64,000 bases of DNA from Corallococcus soli. GTDB lineage: Bacteria; Myxococcota; Myxococcia; Myxococcales; Myxococcaceae. This document shows positions 53,907-64,000 of this stretch, piece after piece. The DNA lies in NCBI RefSeq assembly GCF_014930455.1, contig NZ_JAAIYO010000005.1, positions 496,001 to 560,000 on the forward strand, given 5' to 3'. The notes under the pieces are model-generated. The model was not told where the DNA came from, ran no database searches, and was given only the letters and a program-made list of their open reading frames with translations. Both the position numbers and the translations under genes were made by a program. Position 1 is the first letter of the stretch; each line of letters starts with the position of its first letter.

Positions 53907-54965
53907 TCAGAGCCAGGGCCTCAGCCGATCCCGCAGCGTGCGCACCCCAGGCCATGCCTGCGCCAGCGCGTGGTAGAGCGGCCGTCCGAGCCGGAGCGTG
54001 GCCTCCGCCAATTCCGGGGGTCTGGAAGCCGGGGGCTCCGGAGGGCGGGAAGCCGGGGGCTCCGTGGGCCGCGCGGGGCCGGGCGCCGACGCCGCTTCGA
54101 GCGCCGCGGCGCGCAGCGACTGCACGCGGAGGGCCCGCTCGCTCTCGCTCTCATCGCTCTCGACGCGCCTCAGGCTGACGAAGAACTCGATGTCCCCTGG
54201 AGGGGTCGACGCGAAGTCCGCGAGCTGGAATGGGAACATCCCCAGCTCCGCCAGCGTGACAGCGGCCTCCAGGAAGGAGCGCGGCGTGAAGACCCAGCAG
54301 TGCACGTCCGTGTAGCCGGTTGCCTTCACGGCCTCCTGAGACTTCTGCAGCGCATTCTGGAGCGTGCCGGAGCATGAAAGGCGCTCCGCGTCGATGGCGC
54401 CGCTCCACATCGCCTGCGCGTCCACCTGGCAATAGCAGGCCCAGAAGTCGAAGACCTGCTTCACGGTGGGCGCGGCGCGGCGCGACAGGAAGGCGTCCAC
54501 CAGCTCTCCGGGGGTGCTCTCCGGACGCTTCGCATCGAAGCAGAAGCGCTTGTCCGGGATGGCCAGCGAGACGATGCCACCGGGACGCAGCGCCTCGCGC
54601 AGGTCCCCCAGCCAGCTCACGGGGTCCGGCACGTGCTCGATGACGTGGCTCGCGAGCACGAAGTCCACCCGCCGGTCGCCCAGCGCACGGGACAGCGTTC
54701 GCGACGAGAGGTCCACGTCCACGTCCACGATGGCCGCGGTGTCCCAACCGTGCCCCACGTACTTGCGCCGGAGCACCTCGGTGCTCGCGTGGTCGGCATA
54801 GAGAATCCGTCCGGCGTCACGCGTGACGATCGGACTGGCGAGCGGCCCTATCTCCACCCCTTCCATCGTTGAGAGGTGGATGGCGCCCAGCAGGCGCTCC
54901 TGACGACTCTTCATCTGCACCGGCAGCATCGACGACTCCTCATCCTTCTCGCAGCCCGCCATCAT
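53907..54965 (-). CDS. SAM-dependent methyltransferase, cell-surface glycan-type
   Basis: A 352-residue protein with a class I methyltransferase core: GVEIGPLASPIVTRDAGRIL (motif I region), YADHASTEVL, ASHVIEHVPDPVSWLGDL (motif post-II) and REALRPGGIVSLAIPDKRFC (motif III). The H-V-I-E-H type signature is common in methyltransferases of sugar and surface-polysaccharide clusters. The C-terminal 60 residues include a tandem PPASRPPE repeat, probably a flexible linker, and then a basic amphipathic end. AGGAG lies 9 bases before the first of two ATGs. Acceptor unknown. Confidence 0.8.
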   Translation of the reverse strand: MMAGCEKDEESSMLPVQMKSRQERLLGAIHLSTMEGVEIGPLASPIVTRDAGRILYADHASTEVLRRKYVGHGWDTAAIVDVDVDLSSRTLSRALGDRRVDFVLASHVIEHVPDPVSWLGDLREALRPGGIVSLAIPDKRFCFDAKRPESTPGELVDAFLSRRAAPTVKQVFDFWACYCQVDAQAMWSGAIDAERLSCSGTLQNALQKSQEAVKATGYTDVHCWVFTPRSFLEAAVTLAELGMFPFQLADFASTPPGDIEFFVSLRRVESDESESERALRVQSLRAAALEAASAPGPARPTEPPASRPPEPPASRPPELAEATLRLGRPLYHALAQAWPGVRTLRDRLRPWL

Positions 54966-55077
54966 GCCAGCACACTCCTACGGCCTCCAACTCGTCTTGT
55001 CTTGACCTCCAGCGCAAGCCCACCGTCACCGCGACGACTCCTTGCAGAGGCGGCCCATGCCATGGGACGGAGGGCCT

Positions 55078-55410
55078 ATGTTCGTCCTTCTGCGGACCTT
55101 GGGCCTCTTCGTTCTGACGGCAGTCGCGGAAGTGGTGGGCTGCTACCTGCCCTACCTCTGGCTGCGCGAGGGCAAGTCTCCGCTGCTCCTCGTGCCAGCA
55201 GCAGCGAGCCTCGGCGCCTTTGCATGGCTCCTGACGCTCCACCCCACGGGGGCAGCGCGCACCTACGCCGCCTACGGAGGCGTTTACATCGCGGTGTCGC
55301 TGTTGTGGCTGTGGGCAGTGGAGGGTGAGCGGCCCAGCGCCTGGGACATCGCAGGGGCTTTCGTCGCGTTGACCGGTATGGCGATCATCGTGCTGGCCCC
55401 CCGCAGGTAG
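55078..55410 (+). CDS. YnfA/UPF0060 family small membrane protein
   Basis: A 110-residue protein with four membrane helices of the UPF0060 (YnfA) family. [20 protein letters not shown] near the start, [20 protein letters not shown], and [20 protein letters not shown] at the end are characteristic. YnfA is a small-multidrug-resistance-like transporter by fold; physiological substrates are unsettled. ATG 55078 is chosen over an upstream in-frame ATG because GGAGG lies 5 bases before it. Confidence 0.88.
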
Positions 55411-55566
55411 TTCCGCTCCATCCGACAGTCCAGTCGGGGGACAGCAGACTGATACGGCGAAGCAGCTCCAGGGCCAGATGCCGGAGGCCTACCTCCTCTG
55501 GGTGAAGACGCCCGCGCCGGCCTTGGCCTCACAATGGGGACAAGCCCCTGGTGAAGAGGCAGGTCG

Positions 55567-57360
55567 CTATTCCAGGGTCATGTACTCCGGCTGAGACACC
55601 GACCGATTCCGCAACGGCGACGGGCCGCCGCTGTTCACGCAGTAGCCCGTCGGGTTGTCGCAGCCGCCTTCCGGGTTGCCCCAGTACGCCGTGAGGTTCA
55701 TCCACGCGAGCGAACCCGCGTACGTCCCGGCCGGCTGCCAGGGGATGGACACCACGTGGTTCCAGGTGTCCCACGCGAGCCCTGCCCCGGTGTCGTCGGC
55801 CAGGAAGTCGCCGTTGAAGATGGTTTCGTAGATGTGGCGCGCCGCGTCCGGGTAGAGCCCGTGCGAGCCATTGGCGGAGAAGACCTCCGGGTGCCAGCCC
55901 GTGAGGAAGAGCGCCTTGTCACCGAAGGGGAAGGCCTGCCCGCTCGCGTGCTGGCTCAGGTAGACCTGCGCCGGACGCCCGTCGATGAAGCGCACCGTGA
56001 GGTGCTCCCAGTCCCCCACGTGGTTGCCGAAGGTGGAGTAGCCCCCCACGCAGCCCCAGGGCGAATACCAGCCAATGCACACCCGCTTGCCATTGTTGTA
56101 GGGATAGAAATTCCAATACAGCACGTCCGTCACGTTCGTCGGCCGGCCCCCCTGGGTGCGCGGGATGAGCTGCGCATAGACGGGCACCGACGTCTGGTTC
56201 GGCCGCTGGCCATCCAGGAACTGCGGATCCGTGCAGGAGTCACAGCCCAGCGCCTGGTTCGTCACCAGGTGGCCGTTCTCCTCGTGGACGTTGGCCAGGT
56301 GGAACTGGGTGGAGGACGGAAAGTGGGCCTCGTCCGGGTGCAGCCACACGCGCGGCGCGAACGTGGCCACGACCTGGGCGTCCACTGGCAGGCCGCGCAG
56401 CTCCGGGTTGGACGTGGCGCTCTTGTTGAGGACCCAGTAGCGGTTGCCGCCCGTGTCCCCGTGGCTGGGCCGGGAGACGAAGGTGGACGCGGGCAGGCCC
56501 CGGTGGTCGCGCGCCACCGCCTGCCACACGCCGATGTCGTCGTTCGCGCCGGAGCCCCTGTCGTCCCAGACCCACGCAGGGTTGGCGGGCAGCACGTATT
56601 CGCTCCGCACGCAGCGGATGAGGTCCGTGGAGGGCTTGGAGTAGCCCAGCACCGCGACGTGGCCCAGGCAGGTGTAGCCCGCGGGCGCCACCGGCTCCCA
56701 GAAGGAGACGTCGTGCGTGCCACCGGAGCCGGAGTCACTCCAGGTCCAGGTGTAGTTGGACGGACGCGCCAGCACGTCGCCCTCGCCTCGTACCAGGAAC
56801 GTCGTCGCGGGAACCTGCCCCCGGTTGGACATGGCGACGTCGCCCAGCGAGTAGAAGCCAGGAGACTGGGAGAGGTCGGGACGCCAGACGGAGATGTCGT
56901 TCGTCGCGCCAGTGCCGTGATCATCGTAGACCCAGGTGAACCGGCGCGAGGGTCGGACCTCCAGGGCCTTCGGCTGGCGCAGCACCGCCGTGTCCGCGCT
57001 CAGGGTGAACTCCGCGCTCTGACCCGCGAGCGCGGTCGCCGCGACCAGCTTGTAGCTGCCCGGTGACAGCGTGACGGCCAGCCGCGAGTTCGTGCCGCCA
57101 CCACCGTTGTCATCCTGCGCGAGGATGGTGCCATTCCCATCCAACAGGTACAGCCACGCATCCGCCGACGACGTCAGCGTGACGGTGATGGGGGTGCCAG
57201 CCGTCTGCGAGTCCAGCAGGAACACCCGGTTGCCCGGGCTGGACGGAGCCTGTCCACCCGAGCCCTGCCAGATGCCATACACGGTGTTGGCCTGGGCCGT
57301 GTTCGCCAGGAGTGAAGTCGTGGCGAACACCACCAGGGGAAGCAATTGCCGGAGGACCAT
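55567..57360 (-). CDS. Secreted Vps62-related protein
   Basis: A 597-residue protein with a signal peptide (VLRQLLPLVVFATTSLLANT, cut near AQA). Residues 25-125 form a pre-peptidase-like beta domain (LYLLDGNGTILAQDDNGGGG). From about 140 there are three repeats of the W-x-x-D-x-G-S-G-x-x-D-(V/I)-S-x-W kind (FTWVYDDHGTGATNDISVWR, YTWTWSDSGSGGTHDVSFWE, AWVWDDRGSGANDDIGVWQA), as in Vps62/DUF946 proteins. Then comes the Vps62 core DVLYWNFYPYNNGKR and YSTFGNHVGDWEHLTVRF. The family is known mainly from fungi, plants and some bacteria; its function is unclear. It may be an outer-surface or secreted factor. Confidence 0.78.
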   Translation of the reverse strand: MVLRQLLPLVVFATTSLLANTAQANTVYGIWQGSGGQAPSSPGNRVFLLDSQTAGTPITVTLTSSADAWLYLLDGNGTILAQDDNGGGGTNSRLAVTLSPGSYKLVAATALAGQSAEFTLSADTAVLRQPKALEVRPSRRFTWVYDDHGTGATNDISVWRPDLSQSPGFYSLGDVAMSNRGQVPATTFLVRGEGDVLARPSNYTWTWSDSGSGGTHDVSFWEPVAPAGYTCLGHVAVLGYSKPSTDLIRCVRSEYVLPANPAWVWDDRGSGANDDIGVWQAVARDHRGLPASTFVSRPSHGDTGGNRYWVLNKSATSNPELRGLPVDAQVVATFAPRVWLHPDEAHFPSSTQFHLANVHEENGHLVTNQALGCDSCTDPQFLDGQRPNQTSVPVYAQLIPRTQGGRPTNVTDVLYWNFYPYNNGKRVCIGWYSPWGCVGGYSTFGNHVGDWEHLTVRFIDGRPAQVYLSQHASGQAFPFGDKALFLTGWHPEVFSANGSHGLYPDAARHIYETIFNGDFLADDTGAGLAWDTWNHVVSIPWQPAGTYAGSLAWMNLTAYWGNPEGGCDNPTGYCVNSGGPSPLRNRSVSQPEYMTLE

Positions 57361-57407
57361 GGGGACCTGGGGAAAGGGGAACCCGGGACCATAGCCGTGG
57401 ACGGCCT

Positions 57408-58670
57408 TCAAATCCGAGGGTCGACGCCGTACTCGAAGCCTTCGTAGTCGAAGGCCCGCGCAATGGCATCCAGGTCCGCCCCGGTTCCACCGCAACTCCT
57501 GACGACGTCACGCCAGCGAATCGACACCTGGTGCTTCATCGTGTCGATGAGGCGGGTGGCCTCCTCCTTCGGCACGCGGAAGCGTGCGCACTCACTCAGG
57601 AGGTTGCGGCGGTTGGCCCGGCGGTGCTGGGCGCTTCCCACCTCCATCGCCAGGTCGCGCTCGGTGCTGGCCTGCGGTGCCGGGGTCAGGTCGTAGGCAG
57701 GTGACAGGCTCCAGTGAGCACCAGACGCGATGAGGGCGTGGTTCCTCGGGTGGTCGTCGATGTTCGAGATGAGGGCGTTGAACACCATCCGGCGGAACAG
57801 CTCCCGCAAGTCCTCTCCAGGGTCGCGGACCCAGCGTTTCAACTCATCCGCCAACAGGAGGTAGGACCAGGTCTTGCGCTCGTTCGGGCCCACGCGCGGG
57901 TTCTCGTCAGCCCGGAGCACCGTCAACGCACTGACCATCCGGTGTCGCAAGTAGCCCTGCTCGGTGCGCTTCCGGTCGAACCGCTGGACCAGGAGCACGT
58001 CCTGCCCGGCGATGTTCACGACCTTGCCGGAGGCAGCACGAAGGCCGCATTCGTGCGCGAGCCTCAGCATCGCGAGTTCGACCACGGCGTTGTTCCACCG
58101 GTCCCCTCGCGACGGGAACTTGGCGATCCACAAACCCTCATCGTCCTCGACGACGTTCTTGGGACGCGCCCCTCCCATGGAGCTTCCTGGGTTCACCATG
58201 TCGTCAATCTGGGGGGACGGGGGCAGTCCCTCCTCGAACCGACGGGCTTCCTCCAGCAACAGGGGAAGCGACAGCACCCTGTTGAAGTGATGAACGGGAG
58301 CAGGCGGCGTGGTGCTCGTGCCAAAGGACAGCGCGCCCGCCCGATCCTCCGGGGAGTTGAGGAGGAAGCCGACCTCCGTCAGGTCCCCGCGTCCCAACTG
58401 GCGTTCGATGACCCTGCGCCCCCAGGCGTCAGGCGAAGCGTCTCTCAAGGCTCCGAAGATGCCTCCCAGCCGGGTCGTCCTGAAGGTGCCCGGCCGCAGC
58501 GGAAGCTCGAACAACTCCAGCTCAACGGCACGGGGATTCTCCAGATAGCTCTTGCCGTAGACGAACTGCCCGATGCCGCCCTGCTGGACGTAGCGCCCGC
58601 ACGTCACGACGTCGAGCGAGTCTGGAAGCTGGATGTACACGTAGCAACTGGACGCATCAGAAGTCGGCAT
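57408..58670 (-). CDS. hipA: HipA-family serine/threonine kinase toxin
   Basis: A 420-residue HipA-type kinase. Visible motifs: GIFGALRDASPDAWGRRVIE (HipA N-terminal), GGARPKNVVEDDEGLWIAKF (phosphate-binding loop and ATP-binding lysine, near 165-185), catalytic NIDDHPRNHALI (near 301-312) and the metal-binding YDLTPAP (near 324). In E. coli HipA phosphorylates glutamyl-tRNA synthetase and halts growth; other HipA-like kinases hit related targets. The ATG lies inside the end of hipB (14-base overlap in another frame), typical of co-translated toxin-antitoxin pairs. AAGG 9 bases upstream supports this start. Confidence 0.9.
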   Translation of the reverse strand: MPTSDASSCYVYIQLPDSLDVVTCGRYVQQGGIGQFVYGKSYLENPRAVELELFELPLRPGTFRTTRLGGIFGALRDASPDAWGRRVIERQLGRGDLTEVGFLLNSPEDRAGALSFGTSTTPPAPVHHFNRVLSLPLLLEEARRFEEGLPPSPQIDDMVNPGSSMGGARPKNVVEDDEGLWIAKFPSRGDRWNNAVVELAMLRLAHECGLRAASGKVVNIAGQDVLLVQRFDRKRTEQGYLRHRMVSALTVLRADENPRVGPNERKTWSYLLLADELKRWVRDPGEDLRELFRRMVFNALISNIDDHPRNHALIASGAHWSLSPAYDLTPAPQASTERDLAMEVGSAQHRRANRRNLLSECARFRVPKEEATRLIDTMKHQVSIRWRDVVRSCGGTGADLDAIARAFDYEGFEYGVDPRI

Positions 58671-59004
58671 CGAGCTCATCCTTGCGCTTGGGGACCACGC
58701 GCTCCGGTTGGCGAGCCCGCTCAAGCGTCTTTCCCTCCTCGTCACGGTCAGGCGAGGCGAGGTCGTCGAACTCCCGCTCCATCCCCAGCGCCCACAGGAC
58801 GGTGAAATAGGCACTGAGCGCGGTGGTGGGGCTCCCCTCCTCGATGCGCCTGAGCGTCCCGAGCGCCAGCCCCGTCTTCTTCGCGAGATCCACCTGACGG
58901 AGCCCGCGCCGGATGCGGGCCCGCGCGATGTTCTGCCCCAGGGCCGTGATGGCCCGGCCCACCGCGAAGGGCAGCGTCTCGGTCGTCAGGTTCTGTCGAG
59001 GCAT
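58657..59004 (-). CDS. hipB: HipB-like XRE antitoxin
   Basis: A 115-residue protein whose middle (about 22-75) is an XRE/Cro helix-turn-helix: NIARARIRRGLRQVDLAKKT followed by GLALGTLRRIEEG. The C-terminal tail is charged (ERARQPERVVPKRKDELDAD) and may contact HipA. It overlaps the hipA start and lies downstream of a perfect 14-bp inverted repeat (59036-59084), its probable operator. HipB usually neutralises HipA and represses the operon. Confidence 0.88.
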   Translation of the reverse strand: MPRQNLTTETLPFAVGRAITALGQNIARARIRRGLRQVDLAKKTGLALGTLRRIEEGSPTTALSAYFTVLWALGMEREFDDLASPDRDEEGKTLERARQPERVVPKRKDELDADF

Positions 59005-59035
59005 GCCCCGTAATGATGCCGCTGGCTTCCCTCCA

Positions 59036-59084
59036 GAATCAATCTATTGATTATTCACCGTCACGCCCACCAATAGATTGATTC
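59036..59084. promoter_or_regulatory. Paired operator upstream of hipBA
   Basis: GAATCAATCTATTG (59036-59049) and CAATAGATTGATTC (59071-59084) are perfect inverted copies separated by 21 bases. Each arm also contains a small palindrome (TCAAT-CT-ATTGA and CCAAT-AG-ATTGA), with centres about 31 bases apart, close to three helical turns. The site is AT-rich against the genome average and sits 32-80 bases upstream of hipB. Confidence 0.65.
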
Positions 59085-59135
59085 CCCCTTGGCCCCTGAC
59101 CAGGAGGCGGGCCACGGGCTCCCACTCCAGCCAGG

Positions 59136-60083
59136 TCAGCTTGGGAGACGCATCGACTTCGCCAGCTCCCGCACCAGGCCCCGGGCCACCTCCGGCGAAG
59201 GCAGGCCCGACCGGCGGGCCACGTCCTCCGGCATCAGGCTGTCCGCGGCGTCGCGCTCCAGTTCGAGCCAGGCCTCATGCCGGGCCGCGTCCACCCGCGC
59301 CCGCGCATCCTCCGACAGCCGCGTCCGCGCCCATGCATCAATCGCCCAGGCCAGCTCCGCGTGCCGCAGCTCGTCCGGCGCGATGGCGCCCAGCGCTTCG
59401 CGCACCGTCACGTCCTCCGCGCACCGCGCCTGCCAGCCCGCGAGCAACGCGCCGAAGGTCTCCCGCACGCAGCCCTCCACCGCGTTCTCGATGGCGAGCG
59501 CCTCCAGCGACCGGTCCCCGAACGGCGCCACCGTCACCTCCGGCATCGCGGCCCCGTGACGCACCGCCAGCGACGCCATCGCTCGCGCGTGACGCACCTC
59601 CTCGCCCGCCGCACGGCGCGCGGCCCGCACCCACCGCTCCGGTGCACCATGAAGGGCCAGCTCGTCCGCGAGCCTTTCGAACGCCGGAACCGACGCGGCC
59701 TCCAGGTGCGCCATCCTCGCGAAGAGCGCTCCCAGCGTGGGCACCCGGTCCTCCAGCGCGCCATCACTGCACAGGCCCTCGGGACGCCGGCCCTCGCACA
59801 GGAACGTCACCTGGCAGCGCACCTCGTCGGGCTCCGGAACGCCCTCCGAGGAGCGCGTGAGCTCACAGGGCGTGGTGCCCCCCACGGCCTGACACAACGC
59901 CTCGCAGGAGGTGTCCGCCGTGGGCGTCCCCCCATCCGGCAGCGAGATGGCGGCGATGCGGAACGTCTCCGAACGCGGCTCCGGGTCACAGCCAAAGGTC
60001 GATGAACACCCCACCCCCAACGTGGTGACGGGCGCGAGCAGCCACAGGCGAGAGAAGGCACGGCGGAGCTTCCGGCGGGACAT
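59136..60083 (-). CDS. Lipoprotein with ferritin-like domain (paralogue 2)
   Basis: A 315-residue protein with a basic signal peptide and lipobox TLGVGC (Cys26). A short cysteine-containing domain (CEALCQAVGGTTPC, CQVTFLCEGRRPEGLC) precedes a ferritin-like helical domain: MAHLEAASVPAFERLADELA, GEEVRHARAMASLAVRHG, ENAVEGCVRETFGALLAG and APDELRHAELAWAIDAW. It mirrors the ferritin domain of the 51383 gene but with a shorter N-terminal part. ATG 60083 has AAGGGTG upstream. Probably a surface or periplasmic metal-binding protein; function unknown. Confidence 0.77.
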   Translation of the reverse strand: MSRRKLRRAFSRLWLLAPVTTLGVGCSSTFGCDPEPRSETFRIAAISLPDGGTPTADTSCEALCQAVGGTTPCELTRSSEGVPEPDEVRCQVTFLCEGRRPEGLCSDGALEDRVPTLGALFARMAHLEAASVPAFERLADELALHGAPERWVRAARRAAGEEVRHARAMASLAVRHGAAMPEVTVAPFGDRSLEALAIENAVEGCVRETFGALLAGWQARCAEDVTVREALGAIAPDELRHAELAWAIDAWARTRLSEDARARVDAARHEAWLELERDAADSLMPEDVARRSGLPSPEVARGLVRELAKSMRLPS

Positions 60084-60304
60084 CAGGACACCCTTTTTCA
60101 GTCTCACAGCCGCCGGCCCGGGCGCCCCAAGCCTGCCACGCCGCACCGCGCCCCCGACAGCCCCCTGACACATGGAGACAGATGACAAACATGTAATTTT
60201 CAAGGATTGCATGAATAACCACTTTCCAAGCAACTCATTCACGCGTCGCGAGAAAACCCTGTCGTCACATCCTCCAACGTTGTTCCCCCCTCTTCTGGAG
60301 CGAG

Positions 60305-61171
60305 ATGCGCAAGCCATTCCTGACCCTCACCTTGTTGACGCTGGCGGGTACCAGCGCCCTGGCGTCGGAGCGCCTGAACCCGGCCGACCTGCGCCGGGTC
60401 ACCAAGGCCCGTGAATCCCTGGTGCCGGCCGTCGCGAAGGAGTTCGGGCCCAAGGCCCGGTTCATCCACCTCTTCGGCCAGGGCCGGGGAATGCTCGCGG
60501 GCATCGTCGCGGAGATCCCCGCGGATCCGCTGGGCACGGACGAGCTGCCCCTGCTCGCCATCGTCCGGTACGACGAGTCCACCGGCGCGGTGCGCGTGGT
60601 GGACCGCGAGTTCAAGTACCGCGAAGCCCGCACGCTGGGCTCGGAGGTGGCGCTGCTGGATGGCGAGGGCACCCTGCGCCTGCGCGACGCCAACGGCAAG
60701 GATCGGCTGCTCGCGCGGAGCGTGGGCGGCGACCTGTTCCCCTCGGCCAAGGGCGACGCGCTGGTGGCCACGCTCCTGATGAACAACGAGGGGCCGCATG
60801 AGACCGCCGTGGGCATCATCGACCTCCAGGGCCGCGTGAAGGTGCTCGCGGACGGGCCCGGCGTGGACGCGACGCCCAGCATCTCCCCCGACGGCAAGAC
60901 CGTGGTGTTCGTGTCCGGCCGGACCAGCGTGGCGTCGTTCTACGTGACGGACGTGGAGGGCGCGCCGGCGCGGCAGCTCACCAACGTCGGCCTGGAGAAC
61001 TACATGCTCTTCGGAGGCCCGCCCAAGGAGTTCGTGCCCCCGCCCGTCTCCTCCCACCACATGGAGTGGATGGACGCGGACGTGCTTCGCTACAACGCCG
61101 GCGGCGGCGCATTCTGGAAGATCAACGTGCGCACGGGCCACGCGGCTCCGGACGTGGGAGGTGAACCGTGA
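60305..61171 (+). CDS. Secreted PD40/TolB-like beta-propeller protein
   Basis: A 288-residue protein with a signal peptide (FLTLTLLTLAGTSALA). The C-terminal half contains TPSISPDGKTVVFVSGRTSV and FYVTDVEGAPARQLTNVGL, the PD40 repeat typical of TolB-like propellers; one or two such repeats are visible. It lies ahead of the M23 peptidase gene with a GTGA overlap, so it could be a wall- or ligand-binding partner. No catalytic residues seen. Confidence 0.72.
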   Translation: MRKPFLTLTLLTLAGTSALASERLNPADLRRVTKARESLVPAVAKEFGPKARFIHLFGQGRGMLAGIVAEIPADPLGTDELPLLAIVRYDESTGAVRVVDREFKYREARTLGSEVALLDGEGTLRLRDANGKDRLLARSVGGDLFPSAKGDALVATLLMNNEGPHETAVGIIDLQGRVKVLADGPGVDATPSISPDGKTVVFVSGRTSVASFYVTDVEGAPARQLTNVGLENYMLFGGPPKEFVPPPVSSHHMEWMDADVLRYNAGGGAFWKINVRTGHAAPDVGGEP

Positions 61172-61806
61172 AGTCCCTCATCCTGGCGCTCGCCTTCGCG
61201 CTGCTGACCCTCCCGGCGGCGTCCTCCGCCCAGACGATGTTCCGCTTTCCCGCCTCACAGCTCGCTGACCAGTGTGGCAACGGCGGCTGCGTGGTGAGCG
61301 CCTACAAGGACTACGGCGGCCGGGACTACGCCTGCGGTGGCGTGCGCTACAGCGGGCACACCGGCATCGACTACGCCCTGGTCGGCGGGTTCAGCAAGAT
61401 GGACTACGGCGTCTGGGCCATGAACGCCGCCCGGGGCTACATCGAAGCGTCCGTGGATGGCTACTTCGACCGCTGCAACTACTGGAACCAGGCCAACCCC
61501 TACGCGGCCTGCGGCCTGTACACGGCGAACTACATCATCATGCGGCACCCGGACAACACGCAGACCAAGTACTGGCACCTGAAGGCCTACACCCAGCAGT
61601 TCGCGCGGGGCACCACCCTGGCCTGCGGCAACTGGATCGCCCGGGTGGGTTCGTCCGGTGCCTCCACCGGCCCCCACCTGCACTTCGAGTACTGGGTCCC
61701 GGGCTACGGCACGGATGATCCGTACGCGGGCTCCTGCGGAACGCCCTACACGCGCTGGACCGCGCAGGGCGCCTACCGGGGCCTCCCCGGCATCACCTGC
61801 CAGTAA
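61168..61806 (+). CDS. Secreted M23-family metallopeptidase
   Basis: A 212-residue protein with a signal peptide (SLILALAFALLTLPAASSA). The LytM/M23 domain shows zinc ligands in YSGHTGIDYAL (near 62-71) and the H-x-H of GPHLHFEYW (near 168-176), with KYWHLKAYT supplying the other catalytic histidine. Several cysteine pairs (CGNGGC, CNYWNQANPYAAC) suggest disulfides outside the cell. Such enzymes cut peptidoglycan cross-links; in a predatory myxobacterium it could act on prey or self walls. The GTG start overlaps the stop of the preceding gene (GTGA). Confidence 0.85.
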   Translation: MKSLILALAFALLTLPAASSAQTMFRFPASQLADQCGNGGCVVSAYKDYGGRDYACGGVRYSGHTGIDYALVGGFSKMDYGVWAMNAARGYIEASVDGYFDRCNYWNQANPYAACGLYTANYIIMRHPDNTQTKYWHLKAYTQQFARGTTLACGNWIARVGSSGASTGPHLHFEYWVPGYGTDDPYAGSCGTPYTRWTAQGAYRGLPGITCQ

Positions 61807-61840
61807 TCCGGCACCGTCGCGCCCCTGAAGCGTCCCTCCG

Positions 61841-61875
61841 GGCCCAGCGGGTATACAGTGTATACCTGCTGGGCC
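61841..61875. promoter_or_regulatory. 35-bp palindromic operator upstream of the amidohydrolase gene
   Basis: The centre GGTATAC-AGT-GTATACC (61850-61866) is a perfect inverted repeat. It is extended on both sides by GGCCCAGC and GCTGGGCC with one mismatched pair between. It lies 18 bases before the amidohydrolase ATG, just ahead of the AGGAGGAG ribosome binding site, and is shaped like a TetR-family operator. A TetR gene converges on this operon at 63310. Confidence 0.7.
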
Positions 61876-61893
61876 TGACAGGAGGAGCACCGG

Positions 61894-63297
61894 ATGGGCG
61901 ACCGATGGCTGCTGCGTGGGGCGGAGATCATCACCTGCGACCCCGAACAGGCGGACCTGCCGCGAGGTGACGTCCTGGTGGAGGACGGACGCATCCTCGC
62001 GATGGGTCCCCAGCTGCACGCCGGGGGCTGCCGGCCCGTGGACCTGCACGGGAAGCTGCTCCTGCCCGGCCTCATCGATGCGCACCGGCACACCTGGCAG
62101 ACGCCGCTGCGCGCCCTGGGGGCGGACTGGACGGTGATGGACTACCTGGCGGCGGTGCGCGTGAAGCTGTCGCCCGCGTTCCAGCCGGAGGATCTGCACG
62201 CCGCGAACCTGGCCGGGGCGCTGGAGGCCCTGGACGCGGGCATCACCACGCTCGTGGACTATTCGCACTGCGTGGAGTCCCCCGCGCACGCGGACGCCGC
62301 GCTCACGGCGCTCCAGGACTCCGGCATCCGCGCCCTCTTCGCCTACGGCTACGCGGCGGGGCCCCAGGCGAGCGCCGCGCTGCCGACGCCCGCGAGCCGG
62401 CTCCTGGATGCCCGGCGCCTGCGCACCACCCGGCTGGCCTCCGACAGCGGGCTCGTGCGCATGGGCATCGCCCTGACGGAGATGCAGGTCCCCTGGGAGC
62501 AGAGCCGCGCGGAGCTGCGCTCCGCTCGCGAGCTGGGCGTCCCCATCACCGCCCACTGCTCCGCGTGGCCCATGTCAGGCCCCAGCGAAGTGCAGCGGAT
62601 GGCCGCCGAAGGGCTGCTCGGTCCGGACGTGCTCTTCGTCCACTGCACCTGGAGCTCCGACGAGGACCTGCGACGCATCGCCGACAGCGGCGGCGCCATC
62701 GCGGTGACGCCGGAGACGGAGCTTCAGATGGGCATGGGCTTCCCCGTCACCGGACGCGCGCTGCGCGCGGGGGTGCGGACGGCGCTCGGGTGCGACGTCG
62801 TCTCCAGCAACGGCGGGGACCTGTTCACCGCGATGCGGCTGGCCCTCCAGGTGGAGCGAGGCCGGGCCCATGAACGCGACGGGCTGTCCAAGGTCCTGGC
62901 GCTCAAGGCCGCGCGGATGCTACCCATGGTGACGCTCGACGCTGCGGAGGCGCTGGGGCTGGGGCGCGTGACGGGCTCGCTGCGGCCGGGGAAGGACGCG
63001 GACCTCATCGTCCTCGACGCGAAGGCGCTGAACCTGACGCCGCTCAACCGCCCCCGCGACGCGGTGGTGCTCCAGGCGCATGCGGGCAACGTCGAGTCGG
63101 TGATGGTGCGCGGACGGTGGGCGAAGTTCCAGGGTGCCCTGGTGGACGTGGACCTGGACACCGTCCGCCGCCGGGTCGTCGAGGCCCGCGACGCGGTGCT
63201 CGCCCGCGTGGGAGGAGCGGCCGCGCTCCTGGGCGAACGGGAGGCCCTGGGCGCGCACTGGGACATGGGGAGCGCGGGAGGCGCGAAGGACCCGTGA
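61894..63297 (+). CDS. Amidohydrolase (ATZ/TRZ, cytosine deaminase-like)
   Basis: A 467-residue metal-dependent hydrolase with a TIM-barrel fold. Metal ligands: DAHRHTWQ (H-x-H, near 62-69), ITAHCSAW (near 216-223), FVHCTWSSDE (near 246-255) and the catalytic Asp in ALGCDVVSSNGGDLFTAM (near 297). Flanking beta-sandwich parts have KLLLPGLIDAHR and GSLRPGKDADLIVLDAKAL. The layout fits the TRZ/ATZ branch that deaminates or dechlorinates nitrogen heterocycles, such as cytosine, guanine, S-adenosylhomocysteine or triazines. ATG 61894 with AGGAGGAG upstream. Probably repressed by the adjacent TetR protein. Confidence 0.87.
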   Translation: MGDRWLLRGAEIITCDPEQADLPRGDVLVEDGRILAMGPQLHAGGCRPVDLHGKLLLPGLIDAHRHTWQTPLRALGADWTVMDYLAAVRVKLSPAFQPEDLHAANLAGALEALDAGITTLVDYSHCVESPAHADAALTALQDSGIRALFAYGYAAGPQASAALPTPASRLLDARRLRTTRLASDSGLVRMGIALTEMQVPWEQSRAELRSARELGVPITAHCSAWPMSGPSEVQRMAAEGLLGPDVLFVHCTWSSDEDLRRIADSGGAIAVTPETELQMGMGFPVTGRALRAGVRTALGCDVVSSNGGDLFTAMRLALQVERGRAHERDGLSKVLALKAARMLPMVTLDAAEALGLGRVTGSLRPGKDADLIVLDAKALNLTPLNRPRDAVVLQAHAGNVESVMVRGRWAKFQGALVDVDLDTVRRRVVEARDAVLARVGGAAALLGEREALGAHWDMGSAGGAKDP

Positions 63298-63309
63298 CGC
63301 GAAGCCGGC

Positions 63310-64000
63310 TCAGCGCTGGCGGCGCAGGGGACGCTTCCGCGCAGGGGCCCGCCGTGCGTCGATGCGCCGCTGGATTCCTTCCAGCATGAAGTCGAGGCTG
63401 GTCTCGAACTCACGCCCTACGTCGGTGGCCCGCATGTGCGGAACGCCGTGGGCAAGCCCCGGGTAGTCCCTGGCGGGAAGCGCCCGGGCCGCCGCGAAGA
63501 ACCGCTCGAACGGCGGGGGCGTCCCCGGGGGCCCCACGTCCCATGGCTCCTGCCGGCGGATGGCCCCGGCCAGCCAGGAGAAGAACGTGTTGTGCAGCGC
63601 CCCCGCCTCCTTCCATGGGATGCCGGCGGCGTGCAGCTTGAGCACCGTCCGGTCGAGGATGACGAGCGCAGGGTGGACGACGGGGCCCTGCTCCAGCAGG
63701 AACTCCATCAGCCCCCGGTGCGCCAGCCCCACGGCGCGCAGCCGGCCCGCGAGCCGCCGCAGCCACGCCACCGGCTCCAGCCGCTCCTCCGGCAACACCA
63801 GGGTCTGGAGGATGGCCTCGGCGCACAGGTGCACGAGCGCGTCCCGGTTCTCGACGTGCTTGTACACGGCCATGGGCGTCACCCGGAGCCGGTTGGCCAG
63901 CGTCCGCATGGAGAGCTGTCGCAGCCCCTCTTCCCGGACGAGCGCGACGGCGGCCTCCACCACGGCGTCCCGCGACAGCCGGGGTGGACGCCCACGCGCT
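63310..64000 (-). CDS. TetR-family transcriptional regulator (start beyond window)
   Basis: The frame is open to the window edge; residues read from the edge are ARGRPPRLSRDAVVEAAVAL, typical of a TetR N-terminus, so the real start lies outside. The helix-turn-helix is LSMRTLANRLRVTPMAVYKHVENRD. The C-terminal ligand domain (about 190 residues) resembles the TetR_C_11/TetR-like Cterm group. The tail is basic (RRAPARKRPLRRQR). The gene converges with the amidohydrolase (12 bases apart) and probably binds the palindrome at 61841 (inference). Confidence 0.85.
   Translation of the reverse strand, partial: ARGRPPRLSRDAVVEAAVALVREEGLRQLSMRTLANRLRVTPMAVYKHVENRDALVHLCAEAILQTLVLPEERLEPVAWLRRLAGRLRAVGLAHRGLMEFLLEQGPVVHPALVILDRTVLKLHAAGIPWKEAGALHNTFFSWLAGAIRRQEPWDVGPPGTPPPFERFFAAARALPARDYPGLAHGVPHMRATDVGREFETSLDFMLEGIQRRIDARRAPARKRPLRRQR

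Follow-up and report, generated by a model that had tools for sequence, protein, structure and literature searches.

A short inverted repeat upstream of a hipBA gene pair in Corallococcus soli is very probably the autoregulatory operator of these two genes. Within the 64,000-nucleotide stretch analysed here (the window), the repeat holds two putative HipB palindromes placed 31 bp apart, on which two HipB dimers, each with HipA, would line up on the same side of the DNA, touch across the spacer and repress hipBA.

Results

A hipBA gene pair preceded by a composite inverted repeat

The two genes show the layout of a type II toxin-antitoxin system, with a helix-turn-helix antitoxin gene directly 5' of a HipA-type kinase gene that it overlaps (Table 1). 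The start codon of hipA was set at 58670 because the alignments of its relatives begin at residue 1. HipB matched the Pfam family HTH_3 (27.2 bits, cut-off 23), and HipA matched HipA_C (155.5 bits, cut-off 30.5) and Couple_hipA (27.9 bits, cut-off 22.5). Curated NCBIfam cut-offs were missed, HipB scoring 22.9 bits against 79 for PRK09726; so were those of the Y4mF-family antitoxin TIGR03070 (40.2 bits against 71.65) and of the HipA-family YjjJ PRK09775 (47.7 bits against 401). The closest PDB sequence matches of HipB were HipB chains, 9u9g followed by 2wiu, and those of HipA were HipT/HipA-family kinases. Alignment with E. coli HipA recovered the kinase catalytic motifs: NIDDHPRNHAL stands against ATDGHAKNFSV and SPAYDL against TPFYDI, segments that we take to hold the kinase catalytic residues. 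At its C-terminus (58660-58674, minus strand), HipB carries a D-F tail, in which D114 is kept in at least 90% of 31 aligned sequences and F115 is invariant, reminiscent of the C-terminal Trp of E. coli HipB. The gene 3' of hipA (55570-57363, minus strand) encodes a product that matches Vps62 and contains a PPC domain.

Table 1. Coordinates of the hipBA genes and of the predicted operator elements in the window
Feature	Position	Strand	Remarks
hipB-like antitoxin/repressor gene	58657..59004	-	115 aa, helix-turn-helix
hipA-like Ser/Thr kinase toxin gene	57408..58670	-	420 aa; 14 bp overlap with the end of hipB
Composite double operator (predicted), whole inverted repeat	59036..59084	.	arms GAATCAATCTATTG (59036-59049) and CAATAGATTGATTC (59071-59084)
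hipB-distal operator site (predicted), CAATCTATTG	59071..59080	-	-76 to -67 from hipB ATG
hipB-proximal operator site (predicted), CAATAGATTG	59040..59049	-	-45 to -36 from hipB ATG
Spacer, 21 nt	59050..59070	-	+10 to +12 reads GCG at one site and TTC at the other, in place of the inner T-W-A boxes seen in relatives

The inverted repeat sits between hipB and an upstream neighbour gene that ends at 59136, 32-80 bp upstream of the minus-strand hipBA pair. As the initial annotation had described, its two 14-bp arms are perfectly complementary and each holds a small palindrome of its own, here a 10-bp near-palindrome of the form CAAT-NN-ATTG; the centres, put at about three helical turns from each other, measure 31 bp apart. 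The annotation was also right that these sites differ from the E. coli hip operator, as neither of them reads TATCC-N8-GGATA. With 14 bp as the minimum arm length and 40 as the maximum gap, the window holds no second perfect inverted repeat, and of 60 dinucleotide-shuffled versions of it, only 4 contained any repeat of this class (mean 0.13). Arm length alone is unusual, near chance level and not decisive; the reality of the repeat rests instead on its conservation in relatives. No Rfam match was found in 54000-64000 at gathering thresholds.

In the 9.44-Mb, 68-contig genome, CAATCTATTG occurs at these two places only, and autoregulation is therefore the role that the sequence suggests. A search with the arm as a 13-mer, allowing one mismatch, likewise returned this locus only, so that the proposed search for further genes regulated through the arm sequence yielded no second locus.

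Composition and neighbourhood of the locus

The initial annotation had seen a hint of transfer in the high AT content of the repeat, a reading for which we find no support. The AT-rich part is the operator: its GC fraction is 0.388, compared with 0.595 for the whole intergenic stretch, 0.690 for hipB, 0.656 for hipA and 0.709 for the window. Moreover, hipB has the same upstream gene as its neighbour in 5 of the 8 other hipB loci of the genus (L084, L085, L089-L091). The data fit a locus that is no recent arrival in the lineage of the window, with losses, hipB being carried by 9 of the 16 congeneric genomes, and perhaps some movement, since the upstream gene was not found beside hipB in the remaining three loci (L086-L088). 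Elsewhere in the window, the composition profile drops to a GC of 0.61-0.68 between 36001 and 44000, as compared to near 0.70-0.75 in most of it.

The pair is conserved in close orthologs

A search of 96 genomes provided a close set of 25 HipB orthologs (L083-L107; E about 2e-44 or better), which includes the window's own protein. Loci were read for 30 matches, namely these 25 and five more distant ones (L108-L112); weaker matches and a 26th match at the same E value, a second copy in one genome (G068), stayed outside the close set. Counting as good a site that agrees with CAAT-NN-ATTG at no fewer than 7 of 8 positions, we found at least two good sites in 22 of the 25 close orthologs, and every one of these 22 has a pair at exactly 31 bp. 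The other three (L095, L105 and L107) have one good site with a weaker partner at 31 bp, and none of the five more distant loci has a site at the 7/8 level. Between the end of the chosen pair and the ATG lie 2 to 65 nt, depending on the locus. With their paired sites and conserved spacing, the relatives support the prediction of a double operator for hipBA. Its mirrored arrangement, with CT in the centre of one site and AG in the other, is true of the window copy but is not conserved: the central dinucleotides read CT/AG in 11 orthologs, AG/AG in 6, AG/CT in 4, AG/AT in 2, and AA/AG and AG/TG in one each. Because this orientation varies, we regard the mirrored 14-bp arms as a property of the window copy.

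Across the 96 genomes, two CAAT-NN-ATTG sites separated by any gap of 6-36 were found as 18 pairs, one each in 18 genomes, and the backwards control pattern gave zero pairs in the same scan; the exact pattern misses imperfect sites in other hipB-bearing genomes. The gap is exactly 21, corresponding to centres 31 bp apart, in 17 of the 18 pairs, and 16 of these 17 lie before hipB. The odd pair (G053, locus L125) has a gap of 25 and another core, and neither hipB nor hipA was seen in its vicinity. The seventeenth 31-bp pair (L118, C1:9833948-9833988) belongs to a genome of the same genus as the window (G018) that has no hipB match, and no hipB or hipA match in the 3-kb locus itself. It nevertheless adjoins the window's upstream neighbour gene, here at 70% identity, has TAA and TAG in its inner flanks, and is probably an operator relic left after loss of the hipBA operon. 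These distributions bear on the idea that the repeat is the terminal inverted repeat of a mobile element or a recombination site, as a perfect, AT-rich inverted repeat in a GC-rich genome might suggest. We consider this hardly credible, because nearly all exact 31-bp pairs lie just before hipB, because each genome has a single pair rather than one at both ends of a segment, and because the orphan pair persists beside the same upstream gene although hipBA is gone.

The 31-bp spacing extends to distant hipBA systems

For a more distant comparison, 80 of 103 hipA relatives were kept, all with a HipB-like gene just 5' of hipA. Leaving out 11 myxobacterial loci (L003-L013) and dropping three duplicates of L051 (L052, L055 and L057) gave 66 distinct non-myxobacterial upstream regions. 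None of the 66 contains an exact CAAT-NN-ATTG; GCTCTTAAGAGC-like sites (at least 9 of 12 positions) occur at least once in 45 of them and twice in 33. Other palindromes accompany other recognition helices, GTCGGCTATAGCCGAC going with GASREVV and GTTGCCATCAGGCAAC with GVSRFTV, and on our reading of the tabulated loci the type of palindrome pairs with the recognition helix.

When spacings were ranked by palindrome scores in 16-bp windows, 31 bp was best or tied in 47 of the 66 regions and among the top three in 62; another spacing outranks it in 19. In the controls, 31 bp was best or tied in 2 of 66 stretches inside hipA, in 2 of 63 taken from further upstream, and in 3, 1 and 4 of 66 regions in three shuffled sets, and it reached the top three in 5, 7, and 8, 7 and 7, respectively. 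An earlier scan with 12-bp windows likewise ranked 31 first. When the regions were clustered by HipB identity, 31 took first rank in half or more of the members for 42 of the 58 clusters formed at 90% and for 16 of the 19 formed at 70%. A second class of spacings, at 44-47 bp, we read as the gap between two pairs, as in L064, where the centres lie at -126, -95, -48 and -17 from the estimated start; a number of relatives are thus predicted to carry two operator pairs, as compared to one in the window, and many have a site nearly abutting the start codon that the window lacks. There is also a smaller excess at 20-21 bp, which may come from the inner boxes described below. Among 19 plasmid hipBA loci (HipA identity 35-50%), for which there is no control set, 31 bp was the best spacing in 10 and 30 bp in 4, and the remaining five gave 28, 17, 43, 19 and 50. 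This sample was chosen by us as 20 from the 40 listed of 366 records, less one locus without an annotated hipB (L146); the Xanthomonas citri loci H9-H11 lie outside it.

The fixed spacing in relatives favours a model in which two HipB dimers would be held in a fixed geometry. The distance might instead be a relic of an ancestral operator duplication, with HipB binding independently at both sites and no contact between the complexes. Tandem duplication would be expected to leave arrays such as those in four close orthologs (threshold 6/8), two of which have four sites at 31/30/31 bp (L093 and L103) and two have three sites at 31/31 bp plus one off-register match each (L104 and L106). Against this, the spacers of the close orthologs have diverged to a mean identity of 39% (24% expected) at constant length, flank lengths have changed, and the same distance recurs with other palindromes. 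We therefore judge a mere relic unlikely, and the position of the inner boxes speaks against it as well.

Inner flanks carry T-W-A boxes

In the close orthologs, the inner flanks of the pair are alike when read away from each site, approximately as R-Y-T-C-T-A-R. Their mirror identity is 0.408, as compared to 0.248 expected, a value reached in none of 2000 shuffles; some resemblance also exists between the inner and outer flank of site 1 (0.324 identity). A mirror symmetry that recurs among relatives thus lies in the inner flanks of the pair rather than in the arms, and these flanks are poor in the window.

We then scored the motif T-W-A at +10 to +12 from each centre, positions outside the 16-bp windows by which the pairs had been selected. 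Pairs scoring at least 18 numbered 94 in 64 of the 66 distant loci, and visibly poor ones (for example in L015, L031, L042, L058 and L073) are all counted in the totals. T-W-A was present in 122 of 188 inner flanks and in 11 of 188 outer flanks. Of 39 pairs near the start, 24 and 29 carry it on the inner side of the respective sites, and 1 and 0 on the outer side; for 55 pairs further up, at over 60 bp from the estimated start, the numbers are 37 and 32 as compared to 3 and 7. Both inner boxes are present in 22 of the 39 and 23 of the 55 pairs. Shuffled spacers gave at most 18 inner boxes near the start and 23 further up, against 53 and 69 observed. In the close orthologs, 20 of 50 inner flanks carry T-W-A and shuffles at most 6; in many of these loci the sequence ahead of the ATG is too short to include an outer flank of site 2. 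That the boxes lie mostly on the inner sides is the further point against a duplication relic. The window, with neither inner boxes nor a start-proximal site, may have a weaker operator, judging by its sequence.

The pairs further up are also informative about a possible role of the promoter. If promoter elements overlapped both sites, RNA polymerase would set the 31 bp, and promoter spacing rather than repressor contact would be conserved; indeed, as we read the window and several orthologs, site 1 ends in TTG, with the A/T-rich DNA of site 2 some 17 bp further along. Yet the 55 upstream pairs keep the 31-bp spacing and many of them carry inner boxes, which also makes a promoter -10 element an unlikely cause of the boxes. 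Furthermore, the distance from pair to ATG is very different among orthologs, the 44-47 bp class, taken to be the interval from one pair to the next, is variable where 31 bp is constant, and a simple scan of 58900-59200 detected no sigma-70-like promoter, nor a terminator. We hence regard a spacing imposed by RNA polymerase as quite improbable.

Discussion

We favour a model in which HipB would bind both palindromes, and two HipB dimers, each carrying HipA, would dock 31 bp, or about three turns, apart on the same DNA face. HipA may bridge the neighbouring complexes, with protein-protein contact across the spacer setting the distance, and binding of HipB, or HipB with HipA, would repress hipBA transcription. 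The T-W-A boxes may help the spacer to bend, or may be a contact point for HipA or the N-terminal arm of HipB.

Spaced HipB sites are already known from E. coli and have been noted in Caulobacter. In E. coli K-12, palindromic HipB sites (TATCCN8GGATA) are likewise paired upstream of hipB; by our measurement their centres lie at -125, -97, -58 and -30, giving distances of 28/39/28 bp, much as many relatives of the window combine 31 bp with the 44-47 bp class. Besides having another palindrome and a 28- instead of a 31-bp distance, the E. coli operator differs from the window in that the latter has one pair only. T-W-A stands at +10 to +12 in only one of the four inner flanks in E. coli, as compared to neither of the two in the window. 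For E. coli, cooperative binding to the four sites has been described together with DNA bending by 70 degrees and backbone contacts made by HipA (PMC3376134, PMC3920265), and another study mentions that HipA dimerizes within operator complexes (PMC7029023).

In Caulobacter crescentus, the hipBA1 and hipBA2 promoters are described as sharing identical inverted repeats, whose intervals are said to agree with the higher-order HipA/HipB/promoter structure of E. coli (PMC7029023), and as having three operator sites each (PMC8545095). The Legionella HipBST system is described as having several conserved HipB sites upstream of its operon (PMC10653801), and differs from the window in having three sites, 53-bp gaps, another sequence and another kinase family. 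In YefM-YoeB, altered palindrome spacing is reported to disturb cooperative binding (PMC4803016, PMC3920265); there the antitoxin belongs to another family and the spacing is 12 bp. Neither the 31-bp rule nor the inner boxes are stated in the titles and abstract openings among the matches listed, which is weak evidence of absence.

On balance, we lean towards the view that a large HipBA clade follows one operator plan independent of the recognition sequence, with palindromes exactly 31 bp apart and inner T-W-A boxes one turn from each centre. Two bridged HipB2HipA2 complexes that bend the spacer would have left this plan as their imprint on the DNA, and assembly geometry might then be readable from sequence alone across phyla. 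The HipB recognition sequence shifts between lineages and the distance between paired sites stays mostly constant, which separates the share of the helix-turn-helix from that of the assembled toxin-antitoxin complex. Contacts of HipA between operator-bound complexes have been discussed for E. coli persistence mutants; spacer length offers a simple test of how general they are, and the inner boxes offer a well-defined target for mutation.
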